This document shows, piece after piece, positions 31,514 through 50,687 of a stretch of 54,116 nucleotides of DNA. Origin of the DNA: Bacteroides caecigallinarum (GTDB lineage Bacteria; Bacteroidota; Bacteroidia; Bacteroidales; Bacteroidaceae); NCBI RefSeq assembly GCF_016901995.1, contig NZ_JACJLE010000024.1, forward strand, positions 1 to 54,116, in the 5' to 3' direction. A program made the translations under genes and the position numbers. The notes beneath the pieces were generated by a model, which saw nothing but the letters and a program-made list of their open reading frames with translations, did no database searches and was not told where the DNA came from. Within the stretch, counting starts at the first letter, position 1, and every line of letters starts with the position of its first letter.

Positions 31514-31587
31514 CTCTTCAGGTTGGACTTGAACCAACGACCCTCTGATTAACAGTCAGATGCTCTAACCGACTGAGCTACTGAAGA
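31514..31587 (-). tRNA. tRNA-Asn (GTT), copy 2 of the cluster
   Basis: Identical over all 74 bases to the copies at 31412 and 31609; only the spacers differ (28 bp and 21 bp). Confidence 0.97.
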
Positions 31588-31608: not shown

Positions 31609-31682
31609 CTCTTCAGGTTGGACTTGAACCAACGACCCTCTGATTAACAGTCAGATGCTCTAACCGACTGAGCTACTGAAGA
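31609..31682 (-). tRNA. tRNA-Asn (GTT), copy 1 of the cluster
   Basis: Same 74 bases and cloverleaf as the other two copies; the first gene after the promoter at 31706-31736. Confidence 0.97.
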
Positions 31683-33701: not shown

Positions 33702-35069
33702 TTATTTCTGATCCATTTTCCACCAGTCGAACTCAAAGAGTTCTTCATCGCCTCCACGATATAATATTGTAACGTCATGTACTCCGGTAACTTTCTCTAC
33801 CGGTGCAGAGATGTTGTGCCATTCTTTGTTTGTAGTTACGCTGATAATGGATACGGGCTTGTCGTCAACTCTAATTTCTATTGTTCCGCCTGCCTTGCCT
33901 CGTACACATACAGTTATTGATTTGGCTCCATTTTCGAAATCAACACTGCGAATACGCTGCCATGAACCGTTATAGATACGTGTCAGCCAATGGTCTTTAC
34001 CATCCTGACGGTCTGTTTTCAGACCGTAGCTGTCTGCCATAGTCTCTGCTTCAACACGTTCATACGGGTTAAGGTTTTTAACAGGCTTTTTCACTCCTTC
34101 TTTTGTAAAAGGAATGTGTGGTATGGAACCGTCGGCGTTGAATTTGAATTCCTCCACACAAGAAGCGCGGCGGAAACCTCCTCCGTTTGGCAGACGTCCA
34201 TCATGATAAAACATAAAGTTACGTCCCTTGAATTCTATAGAACCTCCGTGTATGGTAAAACTGTTGTTTGCTTCCTCCATAACGCGTCCACCGTATTTCC
34301 ATGGTCCGGCAATGCTTTTTGCCGTAGAATATGCCATGTGTTCCGGTACTCCTCCTGCTGCATATTCTATATAATAAGTGTCTCCACGTTTATAAACCCA
34401 AGGGCCTTCTTCGTATCCTGTTTTCATGATTTTTTTGTTCAGTTGCCAGTCGTGTTTCAATACTTTAGGGCCGAAGGCAGACTCGTCATCCGTGTTGACT
34501 TTTATTATTTCACTCTCTAATGACACCATGTCGCGTCCCAGTTTGGCATACCATAATCCGTTGTTTCCCCAGAACAGATATGCCTGTCCGTCATCGTCTA
34601 TAAATACCGACGGGTCAATATATCCAAAGCCTCCCGGGACCAGCGGTTTGCCAATAGCATCCTTATATGGGCCTTCAGGACGGTCTGCCACGGCAACGCC
34701 TATGCCATGCAAATGTTTGGTCGTGTCTTCAGCAGCTACATACCAATACCATTTCCCGTCCCGTTCTATAGCCTGCGAAGCCCATGCGTTGTCTCCCTGT
34801 TTTGCCCATTTGAATGTTGCCGTTGACAAAGGCACTCCGCGGAATGTCCAGTTTACCATATCTGTAGTAGAAAAAAGCAGCCAGTCTTTCATCTTGAAAT
34901 ATTGTGCGTCGTCTTCGTCATGGTCTGTAAACAGATAGACCGTATCGCCATGTACATACGGAGCCGGATCCGGCGTATAACAGGTTTGTATAATAGGATT
35001 TTGTCCGGATAACCGGAATAGTGATGACAGTATTCCCACTGCCAGAGTGATTGTTGTTTTTCGTTTCAT
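33702..35069 (-). CDS. Glycoside hydrolase family 43 enzyme with C-terminal CBM6-like domain
   Basis: 455-residue predicted arabinofuranosidase or beta-xylosidase. After a signal peptide (about residues 1-22, cut near SGQ, no lipobox) a five-bladed GH43 propeller shows the general base Asp34 in YTPDPAPYVHG, the pKa-modulating Asp152 in GYIDPSVFID and the acid Glu near 220 in KTGYEEGPWVY. Residues about 335-455 (ERVEAETMADSYGLKT ... ELFEFDWWKM) read as a CBM6 module. The ATG at 35069 begins a normal signal peptide; the longer frame to 35108 does not. Its promoter region carries the same direct repeat as xusA, suggesting it belongs to the xylan system although it is about 5.4 kb away. It is probably periplasmic. 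Confidence 0.93.
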   Translation of the reverse strand: MKRKTTITLAVGILSSLFRLSGQNPIIQTCYTPDPAPYVHGDTVYLFTDHDEDDAQYFKMKDWLLFSTTDMVNWTFRGVPLSTATFKWAKQGDNAWASQAIERDGKWYWYVAAEDTTKHLHGIGVAVADRPEGPYKDAIGKPLVPGGFGYIDPSVFIDDDGQAYLFWGNNGLWYAKLGRDMVSLESEIIKVNTDDESAFGPKVLKHDWQLNKKIMKTGYEEGPWVYKRGDTYYIEYAAGGVPEHMAYSTAKSIAGPWKYGGRVMEEANNSFTIHGGSIEFKGRNFMFYHDGRLPNGGGFRRASCVEEFKFNADGSIPHIPFTKEGVKKPVKNLNPYERVEAETMADSYGLKTDRQDGKDHWLTRIYNGSWQRIRSVDFENGAKSITVCVRGKAGGTIEIRVDDKPVSIISVTTNKEWHNISAPVEKVTGVHDVTILYRGGDEELFEFDWWKMDQK

Positions 35070-35119: not shown

Positions 35120-35127
35120 CAAAGAAA
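35120..35127 (-). promoter_or_regulatory. Possible -7 box of the GH43 gene
   Basis: TTTCTTTG on the minus strand departs from TAnnTTTG by one base and lies about 50 bases before the GH43 ATG, downstream of the direct repeats. A weak core promoter would fit activation by a bound regulator. Confidence 0.35.
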
Positions 35128-35156: not shown

Positions 35157-35197
35157 ATGTTACAAATGTTTTTGCTTATGTTACAAATATGATGTAA
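35157..35197 (-). promoter_or_regulatory. Direct-repeat operator upstream of the GH43 gene
   Basis: Two copies of ATTTGTAACAT (minus strand; plus-strand positions 35178-35188 and 35157-35167) are exactly 21 bp apart, and a degenerate inverted third site (ATGTAAG, 35191-35197) lies further upstream. The same unit TGTAACAT with the same period and orientation relative to transcription is found at the xusA promoter (40468-40526). Two half-sites two helical turns apart fit an AraC-type DNA-binding domain. Confidence 0.65.
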
Positions 35198-35223
35198 GTG
35201 TATATTTTCTATGCGGTTAAAAA

Positions 35224-35260
35224 CAAAAAAAGGGAAGAAGACGCGTCTGTCTCCCTCCCT
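35224..35260 (-). terminator. Terminator of the rpoN-ispG operon
   Basis: On the minus strand GGGA-GAC-AGACGCGTCT-TCT-TCCC forms a hairpin followed by seven T, about 24 bases after the ispG stop codon. Confidence 0.75.
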
Positions 35261-35283
35261 ATTGTGTAATATGGTGATTTCTT

Positions 35284-37128
35284 TTATTTCTCGTGGAAAT
35301 CTCCGTTGGCTTTTATCAGTTCTATCAGTTTTTCTACAGCCTGTTCTTCAGGAATATTCTTTTCTATACATTCCTTACGCTTGTACAGACTGATTTTGCC
35401 GCGTCCTGCCCCTACATAACCATAGTCGGCATCAGCCATTTCTCCGGGACCGTTTACTATACATCCCATAATTCCTATTTTCAGGCCTTTCAGATGTGAA
35501 GTCGCGGCCTTGATGCGTGCGATTGTCGATTCAAGGTCGTAAAGAGTTCTTCCGCATCCCGGACAAGATATATATTCGGTTTTGGAAGTACGTACTCTGC
35601 CGGCCTGAAGAATTCCAAATGCCGTTTCGTCAAGTTTCGTATCTGCTATGGCCGAGGAGTTGTTGTAAAGCAGGATACCGTCAGTCAGTCCGTCGAATAT
35701 TAATGCTCCCATGTCGGCTGCTGATTTAATCTGCAAGTCCTCAACAGAATTTTCTTCATACATCTGGAAGAACACTACAGGGTTTTTCAGGCCTTGTCTT
35801 GTGAGCTGATGAACAAGACCACGGTATTCGCCCAGTCTGTTAGGATGATTGCTCTGTGCAATGATTACAACTTCCGGATGCAGACGCAGACATGCTGTTA
35901 CCTCTTCGTTGAGGCCCATATAAGTGGTAAACAGGAATTTGATTTCCGATTGGATTTGGTGCAGACCTATAATCTGCTGGGTGTTGAATGCAGGATAAGT
36001 GCCTTCTTCGCCATTCCAAACGTTTGCGTCAACTATATAGCCGATATCCTTTCTCCTGTTTTCAGGCAGAGTCTGTCCGCAATATACGTAATCAGGCTTG
36101 AACTGTTCGTTCATGTCCATGTTGCCGTTCAGGCGTACGGAAATAACTACAGGGAGGTTGTCGCCACCAATGTTGCCTACGGCGTTTGTCTTGCGTCTTG
36201 AAGGGTTGGTGTAGCAGAAATCGTCTGCTTCGGCTCCAGGGATATAAGGATGGTTTTCGCGTTTGATGACGTAGTCCACCAGTTTGCGTGCAACAGGAAT
36301 TTCAGCTTCAGGAGCTTCGCTGAGCGATACGCGTATGGTGTCGCCAAGTCCGTCGGCAAGGAGTGCGCCTATTCCGAGAGCTGACTTGATACGTCCGTCC
36401 TCTCCGTCTCCTGCTTCAGTCACACCAAGATGCAGAGGGAATGCCATGCCTTCCTTTTCCATCTGTTCGGCAAGCAGTCTGACGGTCTTTACCATGACAA
36501 CAGTGTTGGAAGCCTTGATGGAGATTACTACATTGCTGAAATTCTCTTCTATACAGATACGAAGGAACTCCATACATGATTCAACCATGCCTTCAGGAGT
36601 ATCGCCATAGCGTGACATGATACGGTCCGACAGTGACCCGTGGTTCACCCCGATGCGGATTGCTGTGTGATTTTCCTTGCAGATGTTCAGGAATTTGACA
36701 AAACGCTCGCGGATTTTCTGTATCTCCTGTGCATATTCCTCGTCAGTGTATTCCAGGCTTTTGAAAGTACGGGCAGGATCGACATAGTTACCCGGATTGA
36801 TACGTACCTTTTCGGCATAAAGTGCAGCTACATCCGCCACGTTCGGATTGAAGTGTACATCTGCCACGAGAGGGGTATTGTAACCTTGCGAGCGCAGTCC
36901 GATGTTTATGTTCTTCATGTTTTCAGCCTCGCGTACACCCTGAGTGGTGAGGCGTACATACTCTCCACCGGCATCGATGATTCGTTTAGCCTGTTCCACA
37001 CAAGCCTCTGTATCCATCGTTACGGTATTGGTCATGCTCTGTATGCGTATAGGATTAGCGCCACCCATAGGAGTGGCGCCAACATATACTTCGTTTGCCT
37101 TTCGGCGTGAATAGTTGAAGTAATCCAT
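35284..37128 (-). CDS. ispG: 4-hydroxy-3-methylbut-2-enyl diphosphate synthase, long form
   Basis: Penultimate step of the MEP isoprenoid pathway: reduces and opens MEcPP using a 4Fe-4S cluster. The N-terminal TIM barrel (VYVGATPMGGANPIRIQSMTNT, IRIGVNHGSLSDRI) is followed by a middle insert of roughly 230-250 residues and then the cluster domain with Cys in SCPGCGRTL (about 521 and 524) and GCIVNGPGE (about 554). At 614 residues this is the three-domain type seen in Bacteroidetes, plants and Chlamydiae, against about 370 in E. coli. It starts one base after the purE stop codon. Confidence 0.97.
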   Translation of the reverse strand: MDYFNYSRRKANEVYVGATPMGGANPIRIQSMTNTVTMDTEACVEQAKRIIDAGGEYVRLTTQGVREAENMKNINIGLRSQGYNTPLVADVHFNPNVADVAALYAEKVRINPGNYVDPARTFKSLEYTDEEYAQEIQKIRERFVKFLNICKENHTAIRIGVNHGSLSDRIMSRYGDTPEGMVESCMEFLRICIEENFSNVVISIKASNTVVMVKTVRLLAEQMEKEGMAFPLHLGVTEAGDGEDGRIKSALGIGALLADGLGDTIRVSLSEAPEAEIPVARKLVDYVIKRENHPYIPGAEADDFCYTNPSRRKTNAVGNIGGDNLPVVISVRLNGNMDMNEQFKPDYVYCGQTLPENRRKDIGYIVDANVWNGEEGTYPAFNTQQIIGLHQIQSEIKFLFTTYMGLNEEVTACLRLHPEVVIIAQSNHPNRLGEYRGLVHQLTRQGLKNPVVFFQMYEENSVEDLQIKSAADMGALIFDGLTDGILLYNNSSAIADTKLDETAFGILQAGRVRTSKTEYISCPGCGRTLYDLESTIARIKAATSHLKGLKIGIMGCIVNGPGEMADADYGYVGAGRGKISLYKRKECIEKNIPEEQAVEKLIELIKANGDFHEK

Positions 37129-37638
37129 TTAATTAGTCTTGTATGCGTATTTAACTTCTTTCAGTTCTTCGTTTGCCTTTACAATCTTGTTTTTCAGTCC
37201 TTCCTTGTAAGCGGCAAACTTCTTAGCCAATTCCTCGTCAGAGAGTGCTATCATCTGTACTGCCAGGATTGCAGCGTTCATTGCTCCGTTGATGGCTACT
37301 GTTGCTACAGGTATTCCAGGAGGCATCTGGATGATAGAATACAAAGCGTCAACACCATCGAGTACAGAGCCTTTAATAGGTACTCCGATTACAGGAAGTG
37401 TAGTGTTGGCAGCAATAACTCCCGGAAGTGCGGCAGCCATACCGGCAGCAGCTATTATTACTTTCAGTCCTCTGTCGGCAGCACCTTTTGCAAATGCTTC
37501 AACTTCGGCCGGAGTACGGTGAGCTGAAAGTGCGTTAATCTCGAAAGGAACCTGCATTTCGTCAAGCAGTTTGGCAGCCTTTTCCATAACCGGAAGGTCA
37601 GAAGTACTACCCATGATGATACTTACTATTGGTTTCAT
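37129..37638 (-). CDS. purE: N5-carboxyaminoimidazole ribonucleotide mutase
   Basis: Rearranges N5-CAIR to CAIR in purine synthesis; class I PurE, 169 residues, octamer in characterised members. IIMGSTSDLPVMEKAAKLLDE at the start holds the Ser and Asp that bind the substrate phosphate, SAHRTP carries the catalytic His and Arg, and AAAGMAAALPGVIAA and IQMPPGIPVATVAI are typical. It is in the middle of the minus-strand operon, 58 bp after gcvH. purB of the same pathway is at 11275-12624. Confidence 0.96.
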   Translation of the reverse strand: MKPIVSIIMGSTSDLPVMEKAAKLLDEMQVPFEINALSAHRTPAEVEAFAKGAADRGLKVIIAAAGMAAALPGVIAANTTLPVIGVPIKGSVLDGVDALYSIIQMPPGIPVATVAINGAMNAAILAVQMIALSDEELAKKFAAYKEGLKNKIVKANEELKEVKYAYKTN

Positions 37639-37696
37639 TCTTTTTTCTCTTATAGTTTATACTTGTTTGTTTTTGTTTATGTCTGTTGTTTTGATA

Positions 37697-38077
37697 TTAT
37701 TCGTTTATAAGTTTTTTATATGCTTCTGCATCCAGCAGTTCTTCAGCTTCAGAAACGTCTGTAGGCTTGATTCTGATAATCCATCCTTCGCCGTAAGGGT
37801 CTTTATTCACAAGTTCAGGATTTTCTTCAAGTGCCGGGTTTACTTCAAGTATTTCTCCTCCAACAGGCAGGAACAAATCGGAAACGGTCTTTACCACTTC
37901 AATACTTCCGAATGTTTCTCCTTTTTCCAGTGTTTCTCCTTCTGTAGGAACATCTACGAATACAATATCACCTAATTGTGTTTGAGCATAGTCTGTTATA
38001 CCTACATATGCTTCTTCTCCTTCTAAACGAATCCATTCGTGTTCGTTTGTGTACTTTACGTTTGTTGGAAAATTCAT
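37697..38077 (-). CDS. gcvH: Glycine cleavage system H protein
   Basis: 126-residue lipoyl carrier that shuttles the aminomethyl group among P, T and L proteins. The lipoylated lysine is in GSIEVVKTVSDLFLPVGGEI, and VKYTNEHEWIRLEGEEAYVGITDYAQ is the normal N-terminal block. Start at the ATG 38077; the longer frame to 38140 adds 21 residues unlike GcvH. No gcvT or gcvP lies in the window. Confidence 0.96.
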   Translation of the reverse strand: MNFPTNVKYTNEHEWIRLEGEEAYVGITDYAQTQLGDIVFVDVPTEGETLEKGETFGSIEVVKTVSDLFLPVGGEILEVNPALEENPELVNKDPYGEGWIIRIKPTDVSEAEELLDAEAYKKLINE

Positions 38078-38109
38078 GGTTTTAAAATTTACAAGGTTAG
38101 TATATCTTT

Positions 38110-38790
38110 TCAAATAAACAAAATTCCTGTGACACCGCAAAATAATCCTACAACAAATCCTCCGAAAACTTCAATAAGAGTGTGTTGGCGCATTATTATT
38201 CTGGCTGTACACAACATACCAGCCAGCAATATGAATCCTGACAGCCACCATACCGGATTGAACTGGAAAAGAAAACTGTAGGACAGCAGTCCCCCGACCA
38301 TTAATCCGCTACTAGCCGCGTGTGTACTGATTTTGAGCTTTAGGTTTACAATGGTACACAATACCATACATATCAGTACGGCAAGAACTATTCCGCTCAT
38401 ATACCTTGGAGTGTGTATCCTGTACATTGTCACCAGACCGCCTATGTAGCTTAGGATTGTCAGTCCGTACGGGACGAACCTGTTTTCACGGTGTCCCAGC
38501 TCTTTTATTCCCCAGCCGTTGATTTTCTGGAAAATGTATATACCCAGCATGGGGAAAAGAATGGTGAAGCAATACACCAGTCCGAGTATCGACAGTTTGT
38601 ACGACATGGGCATTATGTTGAGATATGTAAATAGAAATATCATCAGAAATGCCACAAACGGAACCATGAACGGCGAGAATATCGCCGATACTATATAGGA
38701 TGCTATATATAGCGGGTCCTTTTTTTCCTGTTCCGTGAAATGCACAGGCTCGTGATATGTCAGTTCGCTGGGAATATTATTTTCTTCCAT
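38110..38790 (-). CDS. PAP2-superfamily membrane phosphatase-like protein
   Basis: 226-residue integral membrane protein with about six hydrophobic segments. Residual PAP2 motifs are LGHRENRFVPY (C1-like Arg-Phe-Val-Pro), KISTHAASSG (C2-like, His present but not the exact PSGH) and CTARIIMRQHTLIEVFGGFVVG (C3-like Arg and His). It is therefore related to lipid phosphatases such as undecaprenyl-diphosphate phosphatase, but the changed motifs leave the activity uncertain. It begins 1 bp after rpoN. Confidence 0.75.
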   Translation of the reverse strand: MEENNIPSELTYHEPVHFTEQEKKDPLYIASYIVSAIFSPFMVPFVAFLMIFLFTYLNIMPMSYKLSILGLVYCFTILFPMLGIYIFQKINGWGIKELGHRENRFVPYGLTILSYIGGLVTMYRIHTPRYMSGIVLAVLICMVLCTIVNLKLKISTHAASSGLMVGGLLSYSFLFQFNPVWWLSGFILLAGMLCTARIIMRQHTLIEVFGGFVVGLFCGVTGILFI

Positions 38791-38791
38791 T

Positions 38792-40270
38792 TTATCTTCT
38801 TAGTCTAGCTACAGGAATATTTAACTGTGTACGGTATTTGGCGACAGTACGACGTGCTATAGGGTAGCCTTTGTCTTTAAGGGCTTCTGCCAGTTCGTCG
38901 TCGGTCAGAGGGTTTTCCTTGTCTTCGTTGTCAATCACTTCTTTCAGAATTCTTTTTATTTCTCTTACGGACAGTTCCTCACCGTTGTCGGTGGTATATC
39001 CGTCGTTGAAAAAGTACTTGAGCGGGAAGATACCGAAGTTGGTTTGCACATACTTGCTGTTGCTTACCCTTGATACAGTCGAGATGTCCAGTTTGGCCCT
39101 TTCCGCCACATCCTTCAGTATCATAGGTTTCAGCAAGGTTTCATCTCTCTCGGTAAAGAACGGGCGCTGCAGGTCTATTATTGCCTGCATGGTGCTTAGC
39201 ATGGTGTTTTGTCTTTGCTTTACGGCATTGATAAATCCTTGGGCTGCATCAACCTTCTGCTTCAGGAACATGAATGCGTCTTTTGCTTCTTTCGATTGGT
39301 TGGCTTTGTTCTTGGTCTGTTCTTCCAGCATGTCCGTAAATGTTCTGCTTAGTCGGAGTTCCGGAACATTTCTGTTGTTGAGGCTCAGGATGATATTTCC
39401 GTCATCTTCTGTCTCGACTATAAAGTCCGGGATTATGTGATGCAGGTTTTTGCCCATGGCTTCTCCCATGGAACTTCCCGGACGCGGATTTAACTTTACA
39501 AGTTCGGCCACGGCAGCATTGTATTCATCTTCCGTGATATTGAGTTTCTGTATAATCTTATCCTTGTTTTTCTTTGTGAACTCGTCGCAATACTGGTCTA
39601 TTATGTCGTATTCTATTTTTTTCAGCGGCGAATCCTCTTTTCTCTTTATCTGAAGAAGAAGACATTCTTTGAGGCTTCTTGCACCTATTCCGGCAGGGTC
39701 AAAGTCCTGTATTATCGATATGATGTGTTCAAGTTCTTCTTCTGTTGTGTATATTCCCTGATATATGGCCAGTTCGTCCATTATAGCTTCTGTGGTTTTC
39801 CTCAGAAGTCCGTCATCATCCAGTGAACCTATGATATACTCTCCAAGCATTTTCTGCTCGTCGGTCAGTTCTTGCATGTCAAGCTGCTCTTTCAGTGTCT
39901 CGTAGAAAGAAACATTGTCCGATAAAGGTATTTCTTCTGGAGTTTCGCCTGCGGAACGGTTGTTCTCTTGCAGTTTATAGTCAGGAATGTCATCTTCTGT
40001 ACGGTAGTCGCCCAGCGATACATCTTCGTTATAGTTCGTATCCGGGTCTGCATCAGGGTCAGTAGGATATTCGTTAGCCTGATCCTCAGCTATTTCGGCA
40101 GGGTCTTTCCCTTCTTCCAGTGCAGGATTATCCAAAATCTCTGCATGTACTCGCTCTTCCAATTCCACTGTTGGCAATTCCAGAAGTTTTACCAGCAACA
40201 CTTGCTGTGGTGAAAGTGTCTGGACTTGCTGTTGTGCCTGCGACTGTATTTGACGTGAGTTTTGTGCCAT
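38792..40270 (-). CDS. rpoN: RNA polymerase sigma-54 factor
   Basis: 492-residue RpoN. Residues 1-50 are the Gln/Leu-rich activator-interacting region I (SQAQQQVQTLSPQQVLLVKLLELP), followed by an acidic region (about 58-110), a core-binding domain with DFDPAGIGARSLKECLLLQ, the helix-turn-helix region KPMILKDVAERAKLDISTVSRVSNSKYVQT-like part, and the RpoN box ARRTVAKYRTQLNIP near residues 470-485. It is the first gene of a five-gene minus-strand operon. No sigma-54 activator gene is present in the window. Confidence 0.96.
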   Translation of the reverse strand: MAQNSRQIQSQAQQQVQTLSPQQVLLVKLLELPTVELEERVHAEILDNPALEEGKDPAEIAEDQANEYPTDPDADPDTNYNEDVSLGDYRTEDDIPDYKLQENNRSAGETPEEIPLSDNVSFYETLKEQLDMQELTDEQKMLGEYIIGSLDDDGLLRKTTEAIMDELAIYQGIYTTEEELEHIISIIQDFDPAGIGARSLKECLLLQIKRKEDSPLKKIEYDIIDQYCDEFTKKNKDKIIQKLNITEDEYNAAVAELVKLNPRPGSSMGEAMGKNLHHIIPDFIVETEDDGNIILSLNNRNVPELRLSRTFTDMLEEQTKNKANQSKEAKDAFMFLKQKVDAAQGFINAVKQRQNTMLSTMQAIIDLQRPFFTERDETLLKPMILKDVAERAKLDISTVSRVSNSKYVQTNFGIFPLKYFFNDGYTTDNGEELSVREIKRILKEVIDNEDKENPLTDDELAEALKDKGYPIARRTVAKYRTQLNIPVARLRR

Positions 40271-40290
40271 TTTATAAATTTATTTATTGG

Positions 40291-40320
40291 CAAAAGTAGT
40301 AAAATAATTGTGATAATCAA
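40291..40320 (-). promoter_or_regulatory. Promoter of rpoN - PAP2 - gcvH - purE - ispG
   Basis: Minus-strand TTG (40318-40320), 19 bp, TACTTTTG (40291-40298): an ideal Bacteroidetes promoter 21 bases before the rpoN ATG. Confidence 0.8.
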
Positions 40321-40467
40321 TCCTGAAAAGGTTAGTTTGTTTTAAAGAAAGTATCTTTTATATCAGATTACATAAAAAATATGGTTTTACCTGTTGTTGA
40401 TTTTTAAGTTGGATTTTATATCCTAGTAAGCCTGTATAAATACATAGATATAACTGCAATTATTTAA

Positions 40468-40526
40468 ATGTAACATGCAGCAAAACATATGTAACATTTA
40501 CGGTTGTTATGTAACGTCGGTTACAT
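40468..40526 (+). promoter_or_regulatory. Repeated operator upstream of xusA
   Basis: ATGTAACAT occurs at 40468-40476 and 40489-40497 and ATGTAACGT at 40509-40517, so three direct repeats have periods of 21 and 20 bp. The third is also half of a perfect inverted repeat ATGTAAC-GTCG-GTTACAT (40509-40526). The array ends 17 bp before the -33 TTG of the xusA promoter. The same direct repeat precedes the GH43 gene at 35069. The period fits an AraC-type or hybrid two-component regulator bound to one face of DNA. Confidence 0.7.
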
Positions 40527-40543: not shown

Positions 40544-40575
40544 TTGTGAATACAAAAAAAAATAATGTAAATTTG
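40544..40575 (+). promoter_or_regulatory. Promoter of the xus operon
   Basis: TTG (40544-40546), 21 bp, TAAATTTG (40568-40575). The predicted transcript starts near 40581 and has a 5' leader of about 130 bases before the xusA ATG; I see no strong structure in it. The rest of 40271-40709 holds the rpoN promoter and A/T-rich sequence. Confidence 0.7.
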
Positions 40576-40709: not shown

Positions 40710-43700
40710 ATGAAAAACATAAGACAAAAGTTTATTGAGAAATTTTCTTTTGATAAGAAAAAACACTTTCTCACACAGATGAAGGTGTTCTTTTTCCTGT
40801 TATTGCTTGGCAATGTTTCGATGATGGCTCAGACTTTCGTTGTACAGGGAAAAGTCCTTGATGCGAATGACGAACCTTTAATCGGTGCGGCTATTGTGTT
40901 GAAAAGTCAGAGTACAGTTGGTACTGTGGCAGACTTTGATGGAAATTTTACTTTGGAAGTACCAAGTAAGGATGCAGTATTGACCGTTTCTTATTTGGGT
41001 ATGACTCCACAAGACGTTAAGGTTGATGGACGCAGTATGATAGTTGTTGTATTACGAGAGGATTCCGAAATGCTTGAGGAAGTTGTAGTTGTTGGTTATG
41101 GACAGCAGAAAAAGGCTTCTGTGGTTGGTGCTATCACGCAGACAACAGGCAAAGTGCTGGAAAGAGCTGCCGGTGTTTCGGATATTGGTGCCGCATTGAC
41201 TGGTAATCTTCCAGGTGTTGTTACTACTGCTGGAACAGGTATGCCTGGTGAAGAAGATCCTAAGATTACAATTCGTGGTGCTAGTTCATGGAATAATAAT
41301 GAAGAGCCTCTTGTTTTGGTAGATGGAATTGAGCGTCCAATGAGTTCAGTGGATATTACTTCTGTTCAGTCTATTTCTGTTTTGAAAGATGCTTCTGCAA
41401 CAGCAGTATATGGTGTAAAGGGTGCAAATGGAGTTATCCTGATTACTACCAAGAGAGGTACAGAAGGAAGTGCTAAGATTGATGTCGGTTTTAATGCGAC
41501 TTTGAAATCTCCTTCGAAATTACCTAATAAATATGATTCGTATGATGCTCTAATGTTCCGTAATATTGCCATCGAACATGAATTAGCGTTGGCTCCTCAA
41601 TCATGGGCTGATATACGTTCTCAAGCTTTTATTAATAATTATCGCAATCAAACTACTGTTGAGCAAAGGGAACGCTATCCTAATGTAGATTGGCAGAAGG
41701 CTTTGTTTAAGGATAATACCATGTCATACAACGCAAATATTAACATTAGTGGTGGTACAAAGTTTGTAAAATATTTCGCTGCTGCGGATTATGTGCATGA
41801 AGGCGACCTTTTCCGAGTTTATGATAATGGACGTGGCTATAATTCTGGTTATGGATATGACCGTGTAAATGTACGTAGTAATATTGATTTTAATATTACA
41901 AAAAGTACTGTGTTGAAAGTAAATTTGGCTGGTTCAAATGGTATTAGAAAATCACCATGGAGTAATTCGGGAAATTCTGAATGGCAGATAGGTCAGCAAT
42001 GGTCTGGTGTATATAATATTCCGTCTGATGTGTTTTTGCCTCAATATTCTGATGGTAGTTGGGGTTTTTATCCTAAAGTTTCAAATACAACAAATTCAGT
42101 ACAGAATATTGCAATTAGTGGAACAATGCAGACAACGACAACACGCATTAATACAGACTTTACTTTGGAACAGGATTTATCTTTTATAACAAAAGGTCTT
42201 GTCGCAAGAGCTACAATATCATGGGATAATGAGTTTGTTGAGAATAATCGTGGAATTAATGATTTATATAATGATGCGCAAACTAAGTGGATTGATCCGG
42301 AAACCGGTCAGGTTGTATGGGGAGAATCATATGATACCAATCAAGGATTTGATTGGTCGCAGGGTATAAATTGGATTACACAGTCTGGATCTGTAGATAA
42401 CAGTAGAACAATAAGAAATTTGTATTATCAGGCACAGTTAAGTTGGGCGCGTTCTTTTGGTAAACATAATATGACTGCTATGGGATTATTTAGCCGTCAG
42501 GAGAATGCAAGAGGTAGTGTGATGCCTACTTATCGTGAAGACTGGGCTTTTCGTGTTACTTATGATTTTGCTAATAGATATTTTGTAGAATATAATGGTG
42601 CGTATAACGGTTCAGAAAAGTTTAGCCCTGAGAATCGTTTTGCTTTCTTTAATTCTGGTGCTATAGGATGGATGGTCAGTGAAGAACCTTTTATGCGTTA
42701 TCTTCGTGAGAAAAAAATTCTTGATATGATGAAGATTCGTGCATCGTATGGTGAGATTGGTTCCGACCAACTTGGAGATCCATTTGATGAATCACGTCGT
42801 TGGTTGTACATGGATTCATGGAAATATGCGGGTCACACTCGTTTGGATTTGAACCATGCTGAAAGTATTTATACTTGGTGGTATGAATCTGCTATTGGCA
42901 ATGAAGACATACAGTGGGAAGTCGTGGAAAAAATGAATTTAGGTATAGATTACTCTTTCTTTGAAGGATTAATGGCAGGTAGTGTTGAATTTTTCCGTGA
43001 TACTCGTTCGAATATATTTGTATTTGGTAGTGATCGTTCAATACCTTCTTATTTTGGCGGAACACCTCCTTCAATAAATAAAGGAAAAATCCGTACAACA
43101 GGTTATGAATTAGAATTACGTTTAAATAAAGTTTTAGCGAATGGATTGCGTCTTTGGGGTAATTTTAATATGACTCATGCTCGTAATGTTGTACTTGTGA
43201 AGGATGATCAAGCTTTGCGACCTGCATATCAGAAGGCTGCAGGACACGGTGTTGGTCAATATTATTCTTATATTGACAATGGTTTTATCCAAAATTATGA
43301 TCAGATGTTTGGTAGTCCAGCTCATGATTCAAGTGACTCTCAAAAATTGGTTGGAGACTATTATATTGTTGATTATAATGGTGATGGTGTTATAGACAGT
43401 AAAGACTCTGTTCCTTATGGATATACGAGTTCGCCTGAAAATACATACAATGCTACGATTGGATTTGAATGGAAAGGCTTTAGTGCCTTTGCACAGTTCT
43501 ATGGCGTTAATAATGTTACACGTGATGTTGCTTTAAAAAGTTTGGAAAATAACTTAAATACTGTTTACGATGCAGGAACATGGTGGTCAAAAGATGAACC
43601 AAATGCAGATATTGTTGTTCCTCGCTGGAATTCGAAGCCTACTTATTATGACGGTACGCAATATATGTATGATGGTTCATATATCCGTTTGAAAAATGTT

Positions 43701-43898
43701 GAAATAGCTTATACATGGACAAAGGGATGGGTACAAAAGTTGGGTATCAGTAACCTTAAGATTTATCTTAACGGAAATAACTTGTGGTTGTGGACTCGTA
43801 TGCCTGACGACCGTGAGGCAAATCTCTCAGGAGCTGGATATTTGGGAGCTTATCCTACAGTGAAACGTTATAATTTAGGTATTAAGTTTACATTATAA
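40710..43898 (+). CDS. xusA: Xylan-fragment SusC-type outer-membrane transporter XusA
   Basis: 1062-residue SusC homologue. An extended N-terminus (about 24 residues) precedes the hydrophobic signal (VFFFLLLLGNVSMMAQ), then a carboxypeptidase-like domain at about 44-115 (GTVADFDGNFTLEVP), a TonB-box-like segment at about 120-131 (EMLEEVVVVGYG), a plug with PLVLVDGIERP and AVYGVKGANGVILITTKRG, and a barrel ending in LGIKFTL. The gene order SusC-SusD-SusC-SusD-lipoprotein-GH10 is that of the core xylan-utilisation cluster xusABCDE-xyn10A described in Prevotella bryantii and Bacteroides, which is the basis of the name. It probably imports larger xylo-oligosaccharides with XusB. Confidence 0.92.
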   Translation: MKNIRQKFIEKFSFDKKKHFLTQMKVFFFLLLLGNVSMMAQTFVVQGKVLDANDEPLIGAAIVLKSQSTVGTVADFDGNFTLEVPSKDAVLTVSYLGMTPQDVKVDGRSMIVVVLREDSEMLEEVVVVGYGQQKKASVVGAITQTTGKVLERAAGVSDIGAALTGNLPGVVTTAGTGMPGEEDPKITIRGASSWNNNEEPLVLVDGIERPMSSVDITSVQSISVLKDASATAVYGVKGANGVILITTKRGTEGSAKIDVGFNATLKSPSKLPNKYDSYDALMFRNIAIEHELALAPQSWADIRSQAFINNYRNQTTVEQRERYPNVDWQKALFKDNTMSYNANINISGGTKFVKYFAAADYVHEGDLFRVYDNGRGYNSGYGYDRVNVRSNIDFNITKSTVLKVNLAGSNGIRKSPWSNSGNSEWQIGQQWSGVYNIPSDVFLPQYSDGSWGFYPKVSNTTNSVQNIAISGTMQTTTTRINTDFTLEQDLSFITKGLVARATISWDNEFVENNRGINDLYNDAQTKWIDPETGQVVWGESYDTNQGFDWSQGINWITQSGSVDNSRTIRNLYYQAQLSWARSFGKHNMTAMGLFSRQENARGSVMPTYREDWAFRVTYDFANRYFVEYNGAYNGSEKFSPENRFAFFNSGAIGWMVSEEPFMRYLREKKILDMMKIRASYGEIGSDQLGDPFDESRRWLYMDSWKYAGHTRLDLNHAESIYTWWYESAIGNEDIQWEVVEKMNLGIDYSFFEGLMAGSVEFFRDTRSNIFVFGSDRSIPSYFGGTPPSINKGKIRTTGYELELRLNKVLANGLRLWGNFNMTHARNVVLVKDDQALRPAYQKAAGHGVGQYYSYIDNGFIQNYDQMFGSPAHDSSDSQKLVGDYYIVDYNGDGVIDSKDSVPYGYTSSPENTYNATIGFEWKGFSAFAQFYGVNNVTRDVALKSLENNLNTVYDAGTWWSKDEPNADIVVPRWNSKPTYYDGTQYMYDGSYIRLKNVEIAYTWTKGWVQKLGISNLKIYLNGNNLWLWTRMPDDREANLSGAGYLGAYPTVKRYNLGIKFTL

Positions 43899-43960: not shown

Positions 43961-45919
43961 ATGAGAAAACAATATACATATATATATACTGCACTTTTTT
44001 CCATGGTGATAGGTTGCGGTATGACTTCTTGTCAGGATTATCTTGACAAGAGTCCCGAGGCTACTGTAAATAAGGAGGATGCTTTTAAAGATTTTCGTAA
44101 TTTTCAGGGTTTTGTGGAAGAAATTTATAACTGTATTCCTGACAAGGAGAAATGTAATTATTGTACTTCTTGGAACTGGGGCGATGATGAGCTTTTCAAT
44201 TCGCTTGGTAATGCACACATGACCAATCAGGTTGATTTAGGAAATTTCCGTAACTGGTACAGCAACGGGCAGACATGGCTGATGACGAGTACTAATGATC
44301 CGAGATCGACTAATAGCTTCAATCATTCGTTATGGGGACATGCATGGTACTGTATCCGTAAGTGCAACATTGGTCTAGCTAATCTTGACAAAATGGTGGG
44401 AACAGAAGATGAGAGAAATCTGATTGCTGGACAGCTTTATTTCTTCCGTGCGTGGTGGCACTTTGAGATGATGACATATTGGGGAGGTCTTCCATATATT
44501 GATCAGGTGCTCGACGCTACACAAGAACTGACTCTACCTCGTCTGTCGTATCAGGAGTGTGCAGACAAAGCTGCGGAAGATTTTCGTCGTGCGGCAGATT
44601 TACTACCGATTGATTGGGATGATACCAATGCCGGACAGGCTACAGTAGGTAGGAATCAACTTCGTATAAACAAGATTATGGCATTGGGATATCTAGGCAA
44701 AAATTATCTTTGGGCAGGAAGTCCTTTAATGAAAAATGGTGCTCAGTTGGGAGGAAGTCAAACTTATAATTACGACGAGGAATATTGTCATAAGTCAGCA
44801 GAGGCTTTCGGAGAGTTACTTGCACTAGTTGAAGGCGGACAGACACAATATGCCTTAGCGGAATTTAACTATTCGAATGTTTATGACCATGAAAAGGCTG
44901 CTGGCGCTACAACATGCTATTCTGATATCTTTTATACGCGTCGTCAGAATTGGCAGGTGCCAGGCTCGGTTGAAGCTATATTTAGAGGTCCATCGGGAAG
45001 TGACGGAGGAGCTGATGGTAATAATTCCAACTGGAATATGTCTAAATTGTGGGGACCTAAGGTCGCAAGTTTAGTAGAACACGACGTCATTATTCATTTG
45101 CCAACTGCAAATTTAGTTGAAATGTACGGTATGAGTAATGGATTACCTTTGGATGATCCTAACTCCGGTTTTGATCCTACTCACCCGTTTAAGAATCGTG
45201 ATCCTCGCTTCTATCACGACATTGTGTTTGACGGTTTTCATTATGTACTTGCTGAAGATAAGTTGAACGACGCTCAGAAACCATACGCTTATCTGAATCT
45301 GTCGAGTGGAGGTGGAGATATGCGTTCTGATGATATGGGTAGTCGCACGGGATATTTTTTCCAAAAATTAGTACCACATACATGTAATGTTGGTGATAAA
45401 GAATATGATTGGGGAAGTGCGCTTCACACTTATCTTCCCTATATGCGTCTAGCTGATATCTATCTTATGTATGCTGAGGCTTGTGCTGCTACAGGAGGAG
45501 CTTCAGCAAAGAGTAGTAATTTTGGAAAAACTGCTCTGGATGCAATTAATACAATACGTAACCGCTGTGGTGCTGGTGAGGTAGCAGACTCGTATGCTGC
45601 AGACAGAAATAAGTTTATGGACGAAATTCGCCGTGAGCGTGCTGTGGAACTTTCAATGGAAGGATTCCGTTTCAATGACCTTCAGCGTTGGCTTCTGCTT
45701 ACTGAATCTCCTTATAATGAAAAGTATGCTGTAGAGTTTGATCGTCTTGAGGATGATAACTTCTACAGAAATAATGATCCTGCTGAAGCTAGAGTTGCGA
45801 ACTATCGTCACAAATTGCTTGTTAAACGAGTGTTCGGTACCAAGCATTATTGGTTCCCTCTTCCTGATGATGATGTTTACCTTTATCCGGAATTTCCACA
45901 GAATCCAGGTTGGGAATAA
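43961..45919 (+). CDS. xusB: SusD-type surface glycan-binding lipoprotein XusB
   Basis: 652-residue SusD homologue, longer than usual (about 500-550). It has a lipobox (GMTSC, Cys about residue 24) followed by QDYLDKSPEA, the usual SusD start, the helix GQLYFFRAWWHFEMMTYWGGLPYI and the ending ERAVELSMEGFRFNDLQRWLLL ... YWFPLPDDDVYLYPEFPQNPGW. It is the partner of XusA, 62 bp upstream, and probably binds xylan chains at the cell surface; the ligand is inferred from operon context only. Confidence 0.92.
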   Translation: MRKQYTYIYTALFSMVIGCGMTSCQDYLDKSPEATVNKEDAFKDFRNFQGFVEEIYNCIPDKEKCNYCTSWNWGDDELFNSLGNAHMTNQVDLGNFRNWYSNGQTWLMTSTNDPRSTNSFNHSLWGHAWYCIRKCNIGLANLDKMVGTEDERNLIAGQLYFFRAWWHFEMMTYWGGLPYIDQVLDATQELTLPRLSYQECADKAAEDFRRAADLLPIDWDDTNAGQATVGRNQLRINKIMALGYLGKNYLWAGSPLMKNGAQLGGSQTYNYDEEYCHKSAEAFGELLALVEGGQTQYALAEFNYSNVYDHEKAAGATTCYSDIFYTRRQNWQVPGSVEAIFRGPSGSDGGADGNNSNWNMSKLWGPKVASLVEHDVIIHLPTANLVEMYGMSNGLPLDDPNSGFDPTHPFKNRDPRFYHDIVFDGFHYVLAEDKLNDAQKPYAYLNLSSGGGDMRSDDMGSRTGYFFQKLVPHTCNVGDKEYDWGSALHTYLPYMRLADIYLMYAEACAATGGASAKSSNFGKTALDAINTIRNRCGAGEVADSYAADRNKFMDEIRRERAVELSMEGFRFNDLQRWLLLTESPYNEKYAVEFDRLEDDNFYRNNDPAEARVANYRHKLLVKRVFGTKHYWFPLPDDDVYLYPEFPQNPGWE

Positions 45920-45999: not shown

Positions 46000-48858
46000 A
46001 TGAAAGATAAACAGACAAAATTCATTCTTCTTGCTATGCTTACCGCAGCACCTTGTCTGGCCGGAGCGCAGAGTGCGATTGAGAATGATACTGACACATT
46101 GTCAACAGGAAATGACGCCGAGGTTCAGGTGGCATTCCGGAAAGTATCACGCAAGGATCTTCTTGGAGGAGTTTCTGTTGTCAATATGGAGGAACTTACC
46201 CGGAAAAACTATAATACTTATAGTCTGGATAATATGCAAGGCTATGTGGGTGGATGGAACGGAAACTCCCTGTGGGGAATGGATGGCGATAATGCTGGTT
46301 ATTTGGTCCTTGTGGACGGAGTTCCGCGTGATGCCAACAACGTGATGCCTACAGAGATAGAGCAGATAACTTTCTTGAAGGGAGCACAGGCTGTAGTGTT
46401 ATATGGTAGTAAAGCTGCCAAAGGAGCTATCCTGATTTCTACCAAGCGAAGCACTGCTGAAGGGCTGAGTGTGAGTGTTAGAGCTAATACAGGTTTCAAT
46501 GTTGCAAAAAGTTTTCCAGAATATTTGGGATCAGCTGAATATATGACTCTATATAATGAGGCACGTGTAAACGATGGGCTGGCCCCTTTGTATTCCGATA
46601 CACAAATTTACAATCATGCTTCAGGATTAAATCCTTACCGCTATCCGGACATAAATTATTATTCTTCCGATTATGTAAAGAAAATGTATAATCGTTCAGA
46701 GGTTACAGCCGAGATTGAGGGCGGAGGTTCAAAAGCTCATTTTTACAGCAATATCAGCTATTATCGTAATGGTGACTATCTGAACTTTGGCGAAGCGGAA
46801 AATAATATGGTGGATCGTTTTAATGTACGTACTAATGTGGACGTAAAGATTAATGATTTCATCAAAGCATATATCAATGCTAACGCTACTTTCTATAATT
46901 CAAAGAGCGCAAAAGGCAATTATTGGGAAGCAGCTTCTACCATGCGACCAAACTTTCCGCAGAACGCGGCTCCGCTTATACCTATCGATATGATTGATCC
47001 TAATGCGAGCGCTGTGTGGGAATTATTGAGTACTTCGGGTAATATTATCGATGGCAAATACTTCCTGGGCGGTTCGCAAGCCAATCCTACAAACGCTTTT
47101 GCAGATGTATATGCGGCAGGAAGCAGTAAATATACCAGCCGTCAGTTTCAGTTCGACACTGGGGTGGATGTTAGCTTGGAGAAACTTCTGAAGGGATTGT
47201 CGTTTAAGGCTATGTTTGCTGTTGACTATGCAACTTCTTATAATACATCGTTCGATAATAATTATGCCATATTTGTTCCAACATGGTCTAACTACAATGG
47301 CAAGGATGTCATTGTAGGGCTTACCAAAGAAGGTTTGGACGAGCGTCCAGGTATTCAGAATGTTGGTGGAAGTGCTGATAATCAGACTATAGCCTTTAAT
47401 GCTCAGTTTAATTATCAGAATACATTTGCTAAGGATCATAACGTATCTGCTATGCTTATTGCAAATGGTTATCAGCAGACACGTTCTGCGCAATATCACC
47501 GTATTAGTAATGCTAACTTGGCTTTACAGGCAGGATATAACTTCCGTCAGCGTTATTATGCAGACTTCAGCGCTGCTCTGATTCATTCGGCAAAACTGGC
47601 ACCGGGACACAGAAATGCCCTGTCGCCTTCGCTTACATTGGGATGGCGTCTGAGCGAAGAAGATTTTCTTAAGGACTCTCCTGTTGTGGACGACATGATG
47701 CTTAGCGTATCGGGTAGTATCCTGAATCAAGATATCGATCTTAAGATGGGTGATACTGAATTTTATCTGTATGATGGCTTGTGGACTCAGGCTGATGGCT
47801 ATGGCTGGTATGACGGATCGGCAGGTAAATATACTTACTCAACTAAAGGTGAGAACTACGATCTCGACTTCATAAAGCGTAAGGAACTTTCTGTCAATCT
47901 GAATACTTCATTGTGGAAACGTTTTATCACTCTTGACGCTTCCTTCTTCATTATGTCCAACGAAGGTTACCTGATCGATAAGCCTACGTTCTATCCTTCA
48001 TACTTAAGTACCGGTTATCCTGTAGCTTCGTTTTTGCCAGTATTGAATTATAACAATAACCGCCGTATAGGTTTTGATTTTAGTGTGAATGTGAACCATC
48101 GTATCGGTGAGGTAGATTTGTCTTTAGGAGTTTCAGGTACATACTATGATACTAAGGCTACAAAGCGTGATGAAATATATGACGACGCTCACCGTTATCG
48201 TGAAGGTAAGCCAATTGACGGTATATGGGGATATCAAAGTGCTGGATTGTTCCAAAGTCAGGAAGATATTGACAGCTGGTATGATCAGTCTAAGTTAGGA
48301 CAGATTAAACCGGGAGATATTAAATATATCGATCAAAACGGTGACAAAATTATTGACGAGAAGGATGAGGTTTATCTTGGTAAAGGTGGCTGGTATGGAG
48401 CTCCGTTTACTATGGGTGTAAACATCACTGCCAAGTGGAAGGATTTCACTCTTTTTGTTCTCGGTACTGGTGGAGTTGGAAGCTATGGCTTGAAGAACAG
48501 TTCTTATTATTGGGTGGATCAGGAAGACAAGTATTCTGCAGTGGTACGCAACCGTTGGACAGAGGCTACAGCTTCTACCGCTACTTACCCACGTTTGTCA
48601 ACACTCAATGCAAGTCAGAATTTCTGTGATTCCGATTTCTGGATGTATAAGGCAAACCGTTTCGATCTGGCTAAGATACAGATTACATATGATTTACCTA
48701 AGCATATATTGCGCAGCTCTTTCGTAAAGGAACTGTCGGCATTTGTGGGCGGAGCCAATCTGCTTACTATCTCTAAGGAACGCGAACACATGGAGTTGAA
48801 TGTGGGAAGTGCGCCTCAGAGCAGATACTATAACATTGGTTTAAAAGCAGTATTCTAA
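46000..48858 (+). CDS. xusC: Second SusC-type transporter XusC, lacking the carboxypeptidase-like domain
   Basis: 952-residue SusC homologue. The signal peptide ends at about residue 24 (CLAGAQ); only about 20 residues (SAIENDTDTLSTGNDAEVQ) separate it from the plug, so the carboxypeptidase-like domain and the usual DEVVVVGYG TonB box are missing. The plug has YLVLVDGVPRDANN and VLYGSKAAKGAILISTKR. The barrel ends in GLKAVF. Without the standard TonB box, AEVQVAFRKV may serve as the contact. It pairs with XusD. The 80-bp gap after xusB shows no promoter of its own. Confidence 0.9.
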   Translation: MKDKQTKFILLAMLTAAPCLAGAQSAIENDTDTLSTGNDAEVQVAFRKVSRKDLLGGVSVVNMEELTRKNYNTYSLDNMQGYVGGWNGNSLWGMDGDNAGYLVLVDGVPRDANNVMPTEIEQITFLKGAQAVVLYGSKAAKGAILISTKRSTAEGLSVSVRANTGFNVAKSFPEYLGSAEYMTLYNEARVNDGLAPLYSDTQIYNHASGLNPYRYPDINYYSSDYVKKMYNRSEVTAEIEGGGSKAHFYSNISYYRNGDYLNFGEAENNMVDRFNVRTNVDVKINDFIKAYINANATFYNSKSAKGNYWEAASTMRPNFPQNAAPLIPIDMIDPNASAVWELLSTSGNIIDGKYFLGGSQANPTNAFADVYAAGSSKYTSRQFQFDTGVDVSLEKLLKGLSFKAMFAVDYATSYNTSFDNNYAIFVPTWSNYNGKDVIVGLTKEGLDERPGIQNVGGSADNQTIAFNAQFNYQNTFAKDHNVSAMLIANGYQQTRSAQYHRISNANLALQAGYNFRQRYYADFSAALIHSAKLAPGHRNALSPSLTLGWRLSEEDFLKDSPVVDDMMLSVSGSILNQDIDLKMGDTEFYLYDGLWTQADGYGWYDGSAGKYTYSTKGENYDLDFIKRKELSVNLNTSLWKRFITLDASFFIMSNEGYLIDKPTFYPSYLSTGYPVASFLPVLNYNNNRRIGFDFSVNVNHRIGEVDLSLGVSGTYYDTKATKRDEIYDDAHRYREGKPIDGIWGYQSAGLFQSQEDIDSWYDQSKLGQIKPGDIKYIDQNGDKIIDEKDEVYLGKGGWYGAPFTMGVNITAKWKDFTLFVLGTGGVGSYGLKNSSYYWVDQEDKYSAVVRNRWTEATASTATYPRLSTLNASQNFCDSDFWMYKANRFDLAKIQITYDLPKHILRSSFVKELSAFVGGANLLTISKEREHMELNVGSAPQSRYYNIGLKAVF

Positions 48859-48872
48859 AAAAAGTGATAAAA

Positions 48873-50687
48873 ATGAAACTGAAATATATTTTTATATCTA
48901 CTGTGCTTCTTGCATCTCTCTCAGCTTGTGAAGATATGTTTGAGCCGTCTCAGGAGAACATTAGAGGTGTGGAAGAAATGTTTTCCGATCCTAACTATGC
49001 CTCAGGTTTGTTGGGATATGGTTATGCGATGTTGCCATATGATAATTCAAGCGTCAGCGATGTTGCTACTGATGATGCTGTAACCAACGATCTTACTAGT
49101 AATTATTCGAAAATGGCACTTGGTGCTTGGTCATCAAGCAACAATCCTATGGAACAGTGGCAGGCTCGTAAGGCTACTATACAGTATATCAATACTTTCC
49201 TAAGTATTGTGGATAAGGTGAAATGGTCTAGTACTGAGACTACTAACAGGATGTTTATTGACAAGTTGAGTGGCGAAGCGTATGCTCTGCGCGCATTGAA
49301 TTATTTCTATCTTCTGCAAGCGCATGCCGGATGGACTGACGATGGACAGCTGTTGGGTGTACCAATGGTGTTCGAGCCTGAAGATAAAAACTCCGAATTC
49401 AACCAGCCACGTAATTCGTTTAGCGAATGTGTAAACTATATCTTTGACGATCTTGACAAGGCAATAGAACTCTTGCCGCTTGACTTCGCAAATATCGGCA
49501 GTAATGCAGAACTTCCTTCAAAATATCAGGAAATAGGTGCCGAGATGGGTGGCTATAACCTAGTGTTCGGAACTTATCAACGTGGACGTATATCAGGACG
49601 TATAGCTGAAGGTATTAAGGCTCAGGTTGCTCTTCTAGCGGCAAGTCCTGCCTATCGTGAGGCTTCTGGAGTTACATCAGAAGAGGCTGCAGGATATGCT
49701 GCTACAGTTCTTAACAGAATAGGAGGTGTCAGCGGAATAGACCCTCGTGGAAATACATGGTACAATAATACAGATGAGCTTGACAATATGGGCTCCGGTG
49801 CCGTAACAGCAGAAATCCTGTGGAGAGGTAACCGTACTAATAGTGATGCTGATTGGGATATAGGTATCACACAGGAGAAGAACAATTTTCCACCAACATT
49901 ATATGGAAGCGGTAGAATCAATCCTACACAGAATCTGGTTGACGCTTTCCCGATGGCTAACGGTTATCCTATAACAGATACTTCTAACAGTGGTTATGAC
50001 GCTTTAAACCCTTATGCGGATCGTGATCCACGTTTGACATATTATATATTATATAACGGTAGTACTTATAAGGGTAAAACAATCATCACTGGACTATATG
50101 CCGACAGCGAGAATAAGACAGATGATGGACTGAATAAAATAGGTACATCTACTCGTACTGGATATTATCTGCGCAAGCTTTTACGTGAGGATTGTAATCC
50201 AAATCCGAGTGCTCTTAACCCTAAGTATCATTTCCCGGTACGTATTAGATATACGGAAATCTTTTTGGCTTATGCCGAGGCAGCTAACGACGCTTGGGGA
50301 CCTACCGGTACTGGTGGAAATACTTATAGCGCATACGATGTAATAAAGGCTTTACGTGTACGTGGAGGTGTTGGAACGGATAATGGCGATCCATATCTGG
50401 AGAGTGTTAAGAATGATCAGACACGGATGACAGAGCTTATTAGAAACGAAAGACGCATTGAGTTATGTTTCGAGAACAAACGTTTTTGGGACATTCGACG
50501 TTGGAATTTACCGCTTAACGAGACTGCTAGAGGTATACGTATAGAACAAGCTACAGGCAACTCTTTGAAATATACGGAAATTGATGTAGAGATACGTAAT
50601 TATAGAGACTATATGTATCACGGTCCTATACCTTATTCTGAAATACTGAAATGGAGTAATCTCCAGCAGAATAAAGGATGGCAGTAA
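48873..50687 (+). CDS. xusD: Second SusD-type lipoprotein XusD
   Basis: 604-residue SusD homologue. MKLKYIFISTVLLASLSAC gives a signal peptide with the lipidated Cys at residue 19, followed by the acidic EDMFEPSQE. SGEAYALRALNYFYLLQAHAGW and the ending NERRIELCFENKRFWDIRRWNLPL are SusD-family blocks. The GTG at 48864 would add three residues; the ATG at 48873 is preferred. It lies 14 bp after xusC. The ligand is inferred to be xylan or its oligosaccharides. Confidence 0.92.
   Translation: MKLKYIFISTVLLASLSACEDMFEPSQENIRGVEEMFSDPNYASGLLGYGYAMLPYDNSSVSDVATDDAVTNDLTSNYSKMALGAWSSSNNPMEQWQARKATIQYINTFLSIVDKVKWSSTETTNRMFIDKLSGEAYALRALNYFYLLQAHAGWTDDGQLLGVPMVFEPEDKNSEFNQPRNSFSECVNYIFDDLDKAIELLPLDFANIGSNAELPSKYQEIGAEMGGYNLVFGTYQRGRISGRIAEGIKAQVALLAASPAYREASGVTSEEAAGYAATVLNRIGGVSGIDPRGNTWYNNTDELDNMGSGAVTAEILWRGNRTNSDADWDIGITQEKNNFPPTLYGSGRINPTQNLVDAFPMANGYPITDTSNSGYDALNPYADRDPRLTYYILYNGSTYKGKTIITGLYADSENKTDDGLNKIGTSTRTGYYLRKLLREDCNPNPSALNPKYHFPVRIRYTEIFLAYAEAANDAWGPTGTGGNTYSAYDVIKALRVRGGVGTDNGDPYLESVKNDQTRMTELIRNERRIELCFENKRFWDIRRWNLPLNETARGIRIEQATGNSLKYTEIDVEIRNYRDYMYHGPIPYSEILKWSNLQQNKGWQ

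Follow-up and report, generated by a model that had tools for sequence, protein, structure and literature searches.

Direct repeats in register with the -7 box as a predicted HTCS operator shared by a lone GH43 gene and a putative xylan uptake operon in Bacteroides

Hybrid two-component systems (HTCS) control the use of polysaccharides in gut Bacteroides. In Prevotella bryantii, xylanase genes are activated by XynR, a regulator of the HTCS type, and the xus cluster comprises tandem SusC/SusD pairs and a GH10 xylanase; the present locus is likened to XynR and xus at the level of description. It lies on a stretch of 54,116 nucleotides (the window), which is contig C146 of the Bacteroides source assembly G000 (3.77 Mb, 253 contigs, completeness 99.67%). 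In this window, a 29-bp direct repeat is found both before a xusA-like susC gene and before a GH43 gene that stands apart from it. The repeat, which precedes at least five glycan genes of this genome, is probably the operator of an HTCS, predicted to be one encoded on contig C243, which would switch on the GH43 gene together with the uptake operon.

In Bacteroides thetaiotaomicron, HTCS regulons contain direct repeats that are on average 21 bp apart and that have been read as dimer sites two helical turns apart (PMC3878776). Motifs were predicted for 16 of the 36 HTCS of this species, and the targets encode SusC/SusD and enzymes, some of which are distant (BT4675, BT2680, BT4187-85; PMC3878776). 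The system described here shares with these regulons the 21-bp repeats, a candidate HTCS of the AraC type, SusC/SusD and enzyme targets and distant members. Unlike in the available part of that survey, where two sites are described, no register to the -7 box is mentioned and none of the 16 regulons is named for xylan, the present promoters carry two to four copies. Another related case is the HTCS of polysaccharide utilization locus (PUL) 43 in Bacteroides xylanisolvens XB1A, BXY_29350. Besides two xylan operons, its control extends to a second locus, which contains GH67, GH10, GH2 and transporter genes. This second-locus control was shown by mutation and, in the part of the source available, is left as 'directly or indirectly' (PMC4855328). 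A second locus under one HTCS resembles in kind the sites on contigs C183 and C112 described below, whereas BXY_29350 lies in its own locus and the C243 protein elsewhere; the comparison is one of descriptions, and that part of the source gives no operator. In the literature, mostly the openly accessible part of it, neither this xylan operator nor a fixed -7 box register was found. No paper was found on HTCS studied by DNA affinity purification sequencing (DAP-seq), and on HTCS binding sites together with transcription starts there was one, on raffinose. PMC12125979, as far as the available part of that paper goes, deals with a Vibrio XylR-type motif. HTCS repeats of 21-bp period had been published already; what the present analysis adds is the promoter ruler, the naming of a candidate regulator and a way to test whether cross-regulation is direct.

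The copies of TGTAACAT and their 13-bp spacers were found at both promoters where a sequence-only reading of the window had placed them (Table 1). The two elements, TGTAACAT-N13-TGTAACAT at 35157-35185 on the minus strand and at 40469-40497 on the plus strand, are identical at 23 of 29 positions, as that reading had counted, whereas their 60-bp flanks are unlike (20/60 and 18/60 identical). When 3 mismatches were allowed, the 29-bp pattern matched these two elements and nothing else in the window, and 100 dinucleotide shuffles gave no match. For TGTAACAT by itself, 9 occurrences were counted in the window where 3.07 would be expected, and lone copies therefore carry little meaning. TGTAACA-N14-TGTAACA has exact matches at 3 places in the 3.77 Mb, i.e., both window sites and C1:6-33. 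The steps between copies are 21 bp at both window sites and 20-21 bp at the other promoters of this genome. Two further claims of that reading stood in part. A third site, supposed to follow in each case, is present at xusA (TGTAACGT, 40510-40517) and absent from the GH43 promoter, where no third in-register copy was found and the best candidates have 4-5 mismatches. A common reading direction applies to both window elements and not as a rule, given the TGTTACA copies also held by C183, C1 and genome G001.

The position of the copies relative to the promoter appears equally ordered. Distances were counted between the first base of each copy and the first base of the predicted -7 box, which was scored against the consensus TAnnTTTG taken from the available part of PMC7366714. 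At xusA the copies are 99, 78 and 58 bp from the box, at GH43 58 and 37 bp. On C183, four copies with at most 1 mismatch each are located at 100, 79, 58 and 37 bp, before genes for a SASA esterase, an MFS transporter, GH43 and GH67 (domains were scanned in all of the row save one intervening gene). The C112 copies, at 58 and 37 bp, precede an esterase gene and, further along, GH43 genes. C1 begins 5 bases upstream of the first of its copies, which lie at 99, 78 and 57 bp with a weaker one (2 mismatches) at 36 bp, before SusC/SusD genes. Moreover, two copies of the TGTTACA type, each with one mismatch, were found at 77 and 56 bp before a GH35/GH42-type gene (C1:5326). Taken together, TGTAACA or TGTTACA recurs every 20-21 bp near 100, 79, 58 and 37 bp from a -7-like box, and the placement of the copies is apparently set by the distance to this predicted box. 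The pattern including the box has 3 matches in G000, all at such promoters, and at least two in-register copies were found upstream of 2 of 217 open reading frames (ORFs) in the fetched G000 loci, namely at C112 and xusA. An operator-like array precedes at least five glycan-enzyme or uptake genes of this genome, most of which are predicted xylan targets. The arrays at C183, C112 and C1 rule out a model of two promoters only, and the two-promoter regulon of the sequence-only reading was too small; sites before other GH43 or GH67 genes, for which it had proposed to scan, do occur in this genome. Single-mismatch matches at C201, C210, C219 and C253 were left out of the promoter count, and genome matches with 2-3 mismatches (60 + 60, against 32 + 47 for the reversed pattern) were not used, being largely background. 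The C112-type esterase promoter is letter-identical over a 66-bp match in G000 (C112:6243), G060 (C123:25818) and G015 (C334:18956).

Both window sites recur in other genomes, to a different extent. Of 14 xusA homologues, 8 carry the repeats, 7 of them within 330 bp and that of G031 by the genus pattern described below. Among the other six, contig ends truncate two, a gene lies close upstream of three by our reading of the sequence, and one has no repeats. In Bacteroides caecigallinarum An428a (G018), the relative referred to below as B. caecigallinarum, bases have been gained or lost between the xusA copies and the box, yet the copies are found at 100, 79 and 37 bp. The GH43 element of this relative is identical at 26 of 29 positions (by eye), and its predicted -7 box has the same bases at the same 58/37 spacing. 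There, GH43 and xusA are on separate contigs and each keeps the pair. The GH43 homologues of B. acidifaciens (two alike loci) and Barnesiella sp. WM24 have four in-register copies with at most 1 mismatch. The GH43 neighbours are what we take to be housekeeping genes in Barnesiella and B. caecigallinarum, and an apparent glycan-enzyme cluster in B. acidifaciens. From 45 GH43 loci, 39 were scanned for the exact pair (L268-L271, L273 and L276 were left out; L266, which was kept, has only 2 upstream bases), and it occurs in 4, all among the 8 with at least 62% identity. It is absent from G006 and G033 (61% identical). In this comparison of orthologous promoters, which the sequence-only reading had proposed, both sites are conserved, that of GH43 in the three species named; most of its more distant homologues lack it.

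The registers, first noted on G000 and its relatives, were then examined by running a pattern on 61 genomes of the same genus, G000 included. In this pattern, the period was fixed at 20-22 bp and the distance from the second copy to the box was free over 31 values; distances of 36-38 or 57-59 bp count as in register. It gave 68 matches in 26 of the 61 genomes, against 5 for the reversed pattern. Fifty-one of the 68 are in register (13.2 expected), as are 30 of 44 after alike sequences had been collapsed (8.5 expected), this collapsing being the only way in which kinship is handled in our binomial and Fisher values. All 16 clusters whose first row has two full copies, TGTAACAT followed by TGTAACAT or TGTTACAT, are in register. 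A side peak of 5 matches at distance 39 was counted as out of register. Loci were fetched for 30 of the 68 matches, one of which gave no ORF. Among the 24 in-register matches with a fetched locus, 20 precede a gene for a SusC-like protein (9), GH43 (6), an esterase (3), GH115 (1) or a GH35/GH42-type enzyme (1). The remaining four are L206 (no ORF), L218 (response regulator), L219, whose gene matches nothing in Pfam at 1e-8, and L230 (fimbrillin-like).

One explanation of the likeness between the window elements is chance, or local copying of promoter DNA in an A+T-rich region. TGTAACAT is indeed A+T-rich and lone copies are scattered in the window, but the shuffles without a match, the unlike flanks, the genus-wide register and the retention of the pair at both genes of B. 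caecigallinarum on different contigs make this explanation very improbable. With regard to the ruler itself, the stronger proposal that HTCS operators follow fixed positions 37, 58, 79 and 100 bp upstream of the -7 box, with two to four sites filled, and that the lone GH43 gene kept this ruler while moving among housekeeping neighbourhoods across Bacteroidales families, has in our judgement an even chance of being right.

The sequence-only reading had considered an HTCS encoded elsewhere probable, and a candidate can now be named. Judged by length and a match to Y_Y_Y, 14 proteins of G000 are HTCS-like. The one encoded at C243:76694-80791 was given a full domain scan and has a propeller sensor, kinase, receiver and AraC-type domains (Table 1); its counterpart in B. 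caecigallinarum is 81% identical. The in-locus HTCS of B. caecigallinarum and G007 match this protein best (39-40%, next 29-32%). Over the last 120 residues, it shares 62 of 104 positions with the B. caecigallinarum protein, against 55 of 104 for the runner-up on C14. In a maximum-likelihood tree of 29 proteins, 15 form one clade with support 100/100 and three subgroups: in-locus types (G018, G007, G012, G031), the C243 type (G000, G018, G015, G022, G026, G001) and a third, of which 2 of 3 members adjoin XusA paralogues (G001 C25, G012 C18). C243 is the sole member of this clade among the 14 proteins of G000. Clade members adjoin xylan genes in G018 and G007, and in G011, G063 and G020 the clade HTCS gene is divergent from a GH43 gene, with repeats 122-125 bp from the HTCS. 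The latter three are 95-97% identical in DNA over promoter and HTCS and therefore represent one event. Of the 61 genomes, 19 have both a clade HTCS and the in-register motif, 4 the motif alone, 7 the HTCS alone and 31 neither (Fisher 1e-6); scoring was limited to 10 first-look candidates in each genome, and a genome without a clade match may therefore still have a clade HTCS. The 37 good genomes gave 15/1/6/15 (p 1e-4). By clade membership and co-occurrence with the motif, C243 is the best candidate and is predicted to be the regulator of the array genes.

Multiple matches to this clade are found in G031 (four) and in G066, G067 and G084 (three each), and HTCS paralogues with possibly one shared operator thus coexist. 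In G066, the match to one clade gene (C1:1431942-1434749, L280) covers residues 8-937 only and does not include the receiver and DNA-binding part. This gene and a xusA-like gene diverge from each other, and a match out of register lies between them.

Could the repeats instead be sites of a general sugar regulator, such as the Crp-like BT4338 or an XylR of the NrtR type? The published Crp-like site, wwwTATGTTnTAnAACATAwww, also contains AACAT (PMC3878776). The Crp-like site, however, is a 22-bp palindrome, whereas the present promoters have two to four copies every 20-21 bp, as published for HTCS; the NrtR-type motif lies outside this comparison. In addition, the downstream genes encode glycan uptake proteins and enzymes and the presence of the motif tracks the HTCS clade, which renders a general sugar regulator very unlikely. 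Less improbable, but still clearly a minority view, is that operator and regulon are real and respond to a different HTCS, to an in-locus HTCS lost in an assembly gap or to a one-component AraC protein. B. caecigallinarum has an in-locus HTCS besides its C243-type one, several genomes hold 2-4 clade members, G000 is split into 253 contigs and the C14 HTCS reaches 55/104 in the DNA-binding end. Against this stand the completeness of the assembly (99.67%), the failure to find a second clade member in G000 and the arrangement on C112, which at the position of the in-locus HTCS of B. caecigallinarum passes from GH43 directly to a gene on the opposite strand 138 bp off.

Several observations also weigh against the proposed operator and its assignment to C243. 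The -7 box of GH43 is one base off the consensus. The exact pair is found in just 4 of the 39 GH43 homologues and is absent from those of G009 and G017, which are 67-69% identical. Four of the 6 out-of-register matches precede GH30, SASA, GH35-type or TonB-receptor genes, and the register is therefore strong, not absolute. Four genomes have the motif without a clade HTCS and seven the clade HTCS without an in-register motif. The likeness of C243 to the in-locus HTCS is just 39-40%, and its lead over C14 in the DNA-binding end is small (62/104 against 55/104). Usually, although not universally, an HTCS gene adjoins its susC/susD targets; C243 does not, and as far as its contig shows the gene has no adjacent xylan genes. 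Lastly, no TGTAACAT occurs in the 400 bases upstream of the C243 gene, which discards autoregulation via TGTAACAT within that distance.

If C243 is the cognate HTCS, as we infer from its sequence relationships, regulation may proceed as follows. Sensing of xylan oligosaccharides and phosphorylation would free the DNA-binding domain of the HTCS. Each copy of the repeat would hold one AraC-type domain, and an HTCS dimer, or a longer chain, would sit along one face of the DNA on copies two helical turns apart. The box-proximal copy would set the activator next to RNA polymerase. GH43 would then be a satellite gene whose place in the regulon depends on its operator and not on its chromosomal position. 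Binding, dimer spacing, activation geometry, the response to xylan and the identity of the acting HTCS in this genome are all proposed from sequence.

The locus itself has tandem SusC/SusD pairs, a GH10 xylanase and linked GH43, GH67 and esterase genes, in keeping with a xylan locus (Table 1; domain calls from Pfam). The xus names of the SusC-type operon are presumptive labels taken from the sequence-only reading. XusA and GH43 are 97% and 87% identical to their B. caecigallinarum counterparts. The start of GH43 was set, by our own reading, 14 codons inside the listed ORF. Its nearest solved chains by sequence are named xylan 1,4-beta-xylosidase (8hcj, E 3e-113) and Xsa43E (4nov), which suggests a xylan-type substrate. 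Between the xusA row and GH43 lie gcpE/ispG, purE, a PAP2-like gene (26.0 bits, below the Pfam cut-off of 27.2) and rpoN; in line with the sequence-only reading, no xylan gene was found among the intervening ORFs, scanned with Pfam save one of 147 aa. This ispG-purE-PAP2-rpoN row has xusA and GH43 as neighbours in the window, flanks xusA in G022 (L180) and flanks GH43 in B. caecigallinarum (L232). The GH67 gene and part of the GH43 genes of the xylan set sit on other contigs. Just past GH10, the window presumably ends (about 54015-54116) within a group II intron, of which it has the 5' part, whereas C112 apparently opens, in its first 130 bases, with a maturase tail. An intron present in repeated copies would account for a contig break within the xylan locus. 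C112 very likely continues this locus, because its gene after the maturase tail begins like the gene next after the GH10-position gene in B. caecigallinarum. Elsewhere in the window, Rfam found three tRNA genes in a row on the minus strand (31412-31485, 31514-31587 and 31609-31682, with equal scores) and no other match.

Table 1. Putative operator copies, predicted -7 boxes and genes of the xylan system; positions refer to the window unless a contig is given.
Feature	Position	Strand	Remark
Operator copy 1 before xusA, TGTAACAT	40469..40476	+	99 bp upstream of box
Operator copy 2 before xusA, TGTAACAT	40490..40497	+	78 bp upstream of box
Operator copy 3 before xusA, TGTAACGT	40510..40517	+	58 bp upstream of box
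Predicted -7 box of xusA, TAAATTTG	40568..40575	+	consensus TAnnTTTG
xusA-like SusC (TonB-dependent receptor)	40710..43898	+	Pfam, relatives
SusD-like protein	43961..45919	+	Pfam
Second SusC-like protein (Plug domain)	46000..48858	+	Pfam
Second SusD-like protein	48864..50687	+	Pfam
BT_3987-like_N / DUF5627 protein	50707..51762	+	Pfam
GH10 xylanase	51792..53945	+	Pfam
Operator copy 1 before GH43, TGTAACAT	35178..35185	-	58 bp upstream of box
Operator copy 2 before GH43, TGTAACAT	35157..35164	-	37 bp upstream of box
Predicted -7 box of GH43, TTTCTTTG	35120..35127	-	one base off TAnnTTTG
GH43 + CBM6 enzyme	33702..35066	-	Pfam; PDB
Candidate HTCS	C243:76694-80791		Reg_prop, Y_Y_Y, HisKA, HATPase_c, Response_reg, HTH_18 (Pfam)

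If true, the 'directly or indirectly' of PMC4855328 would become testable through a xylan operator whose register is strict, along with its candidate regulator and its list of targets. It would also mean that a lone enzyme gene may stay in a regulon via its operator while its neighbours change. Finally, if the ruler holds, it would by itself make entire xylan regulons readable from sequence, and perhaps the regulons of other HTCS as well.

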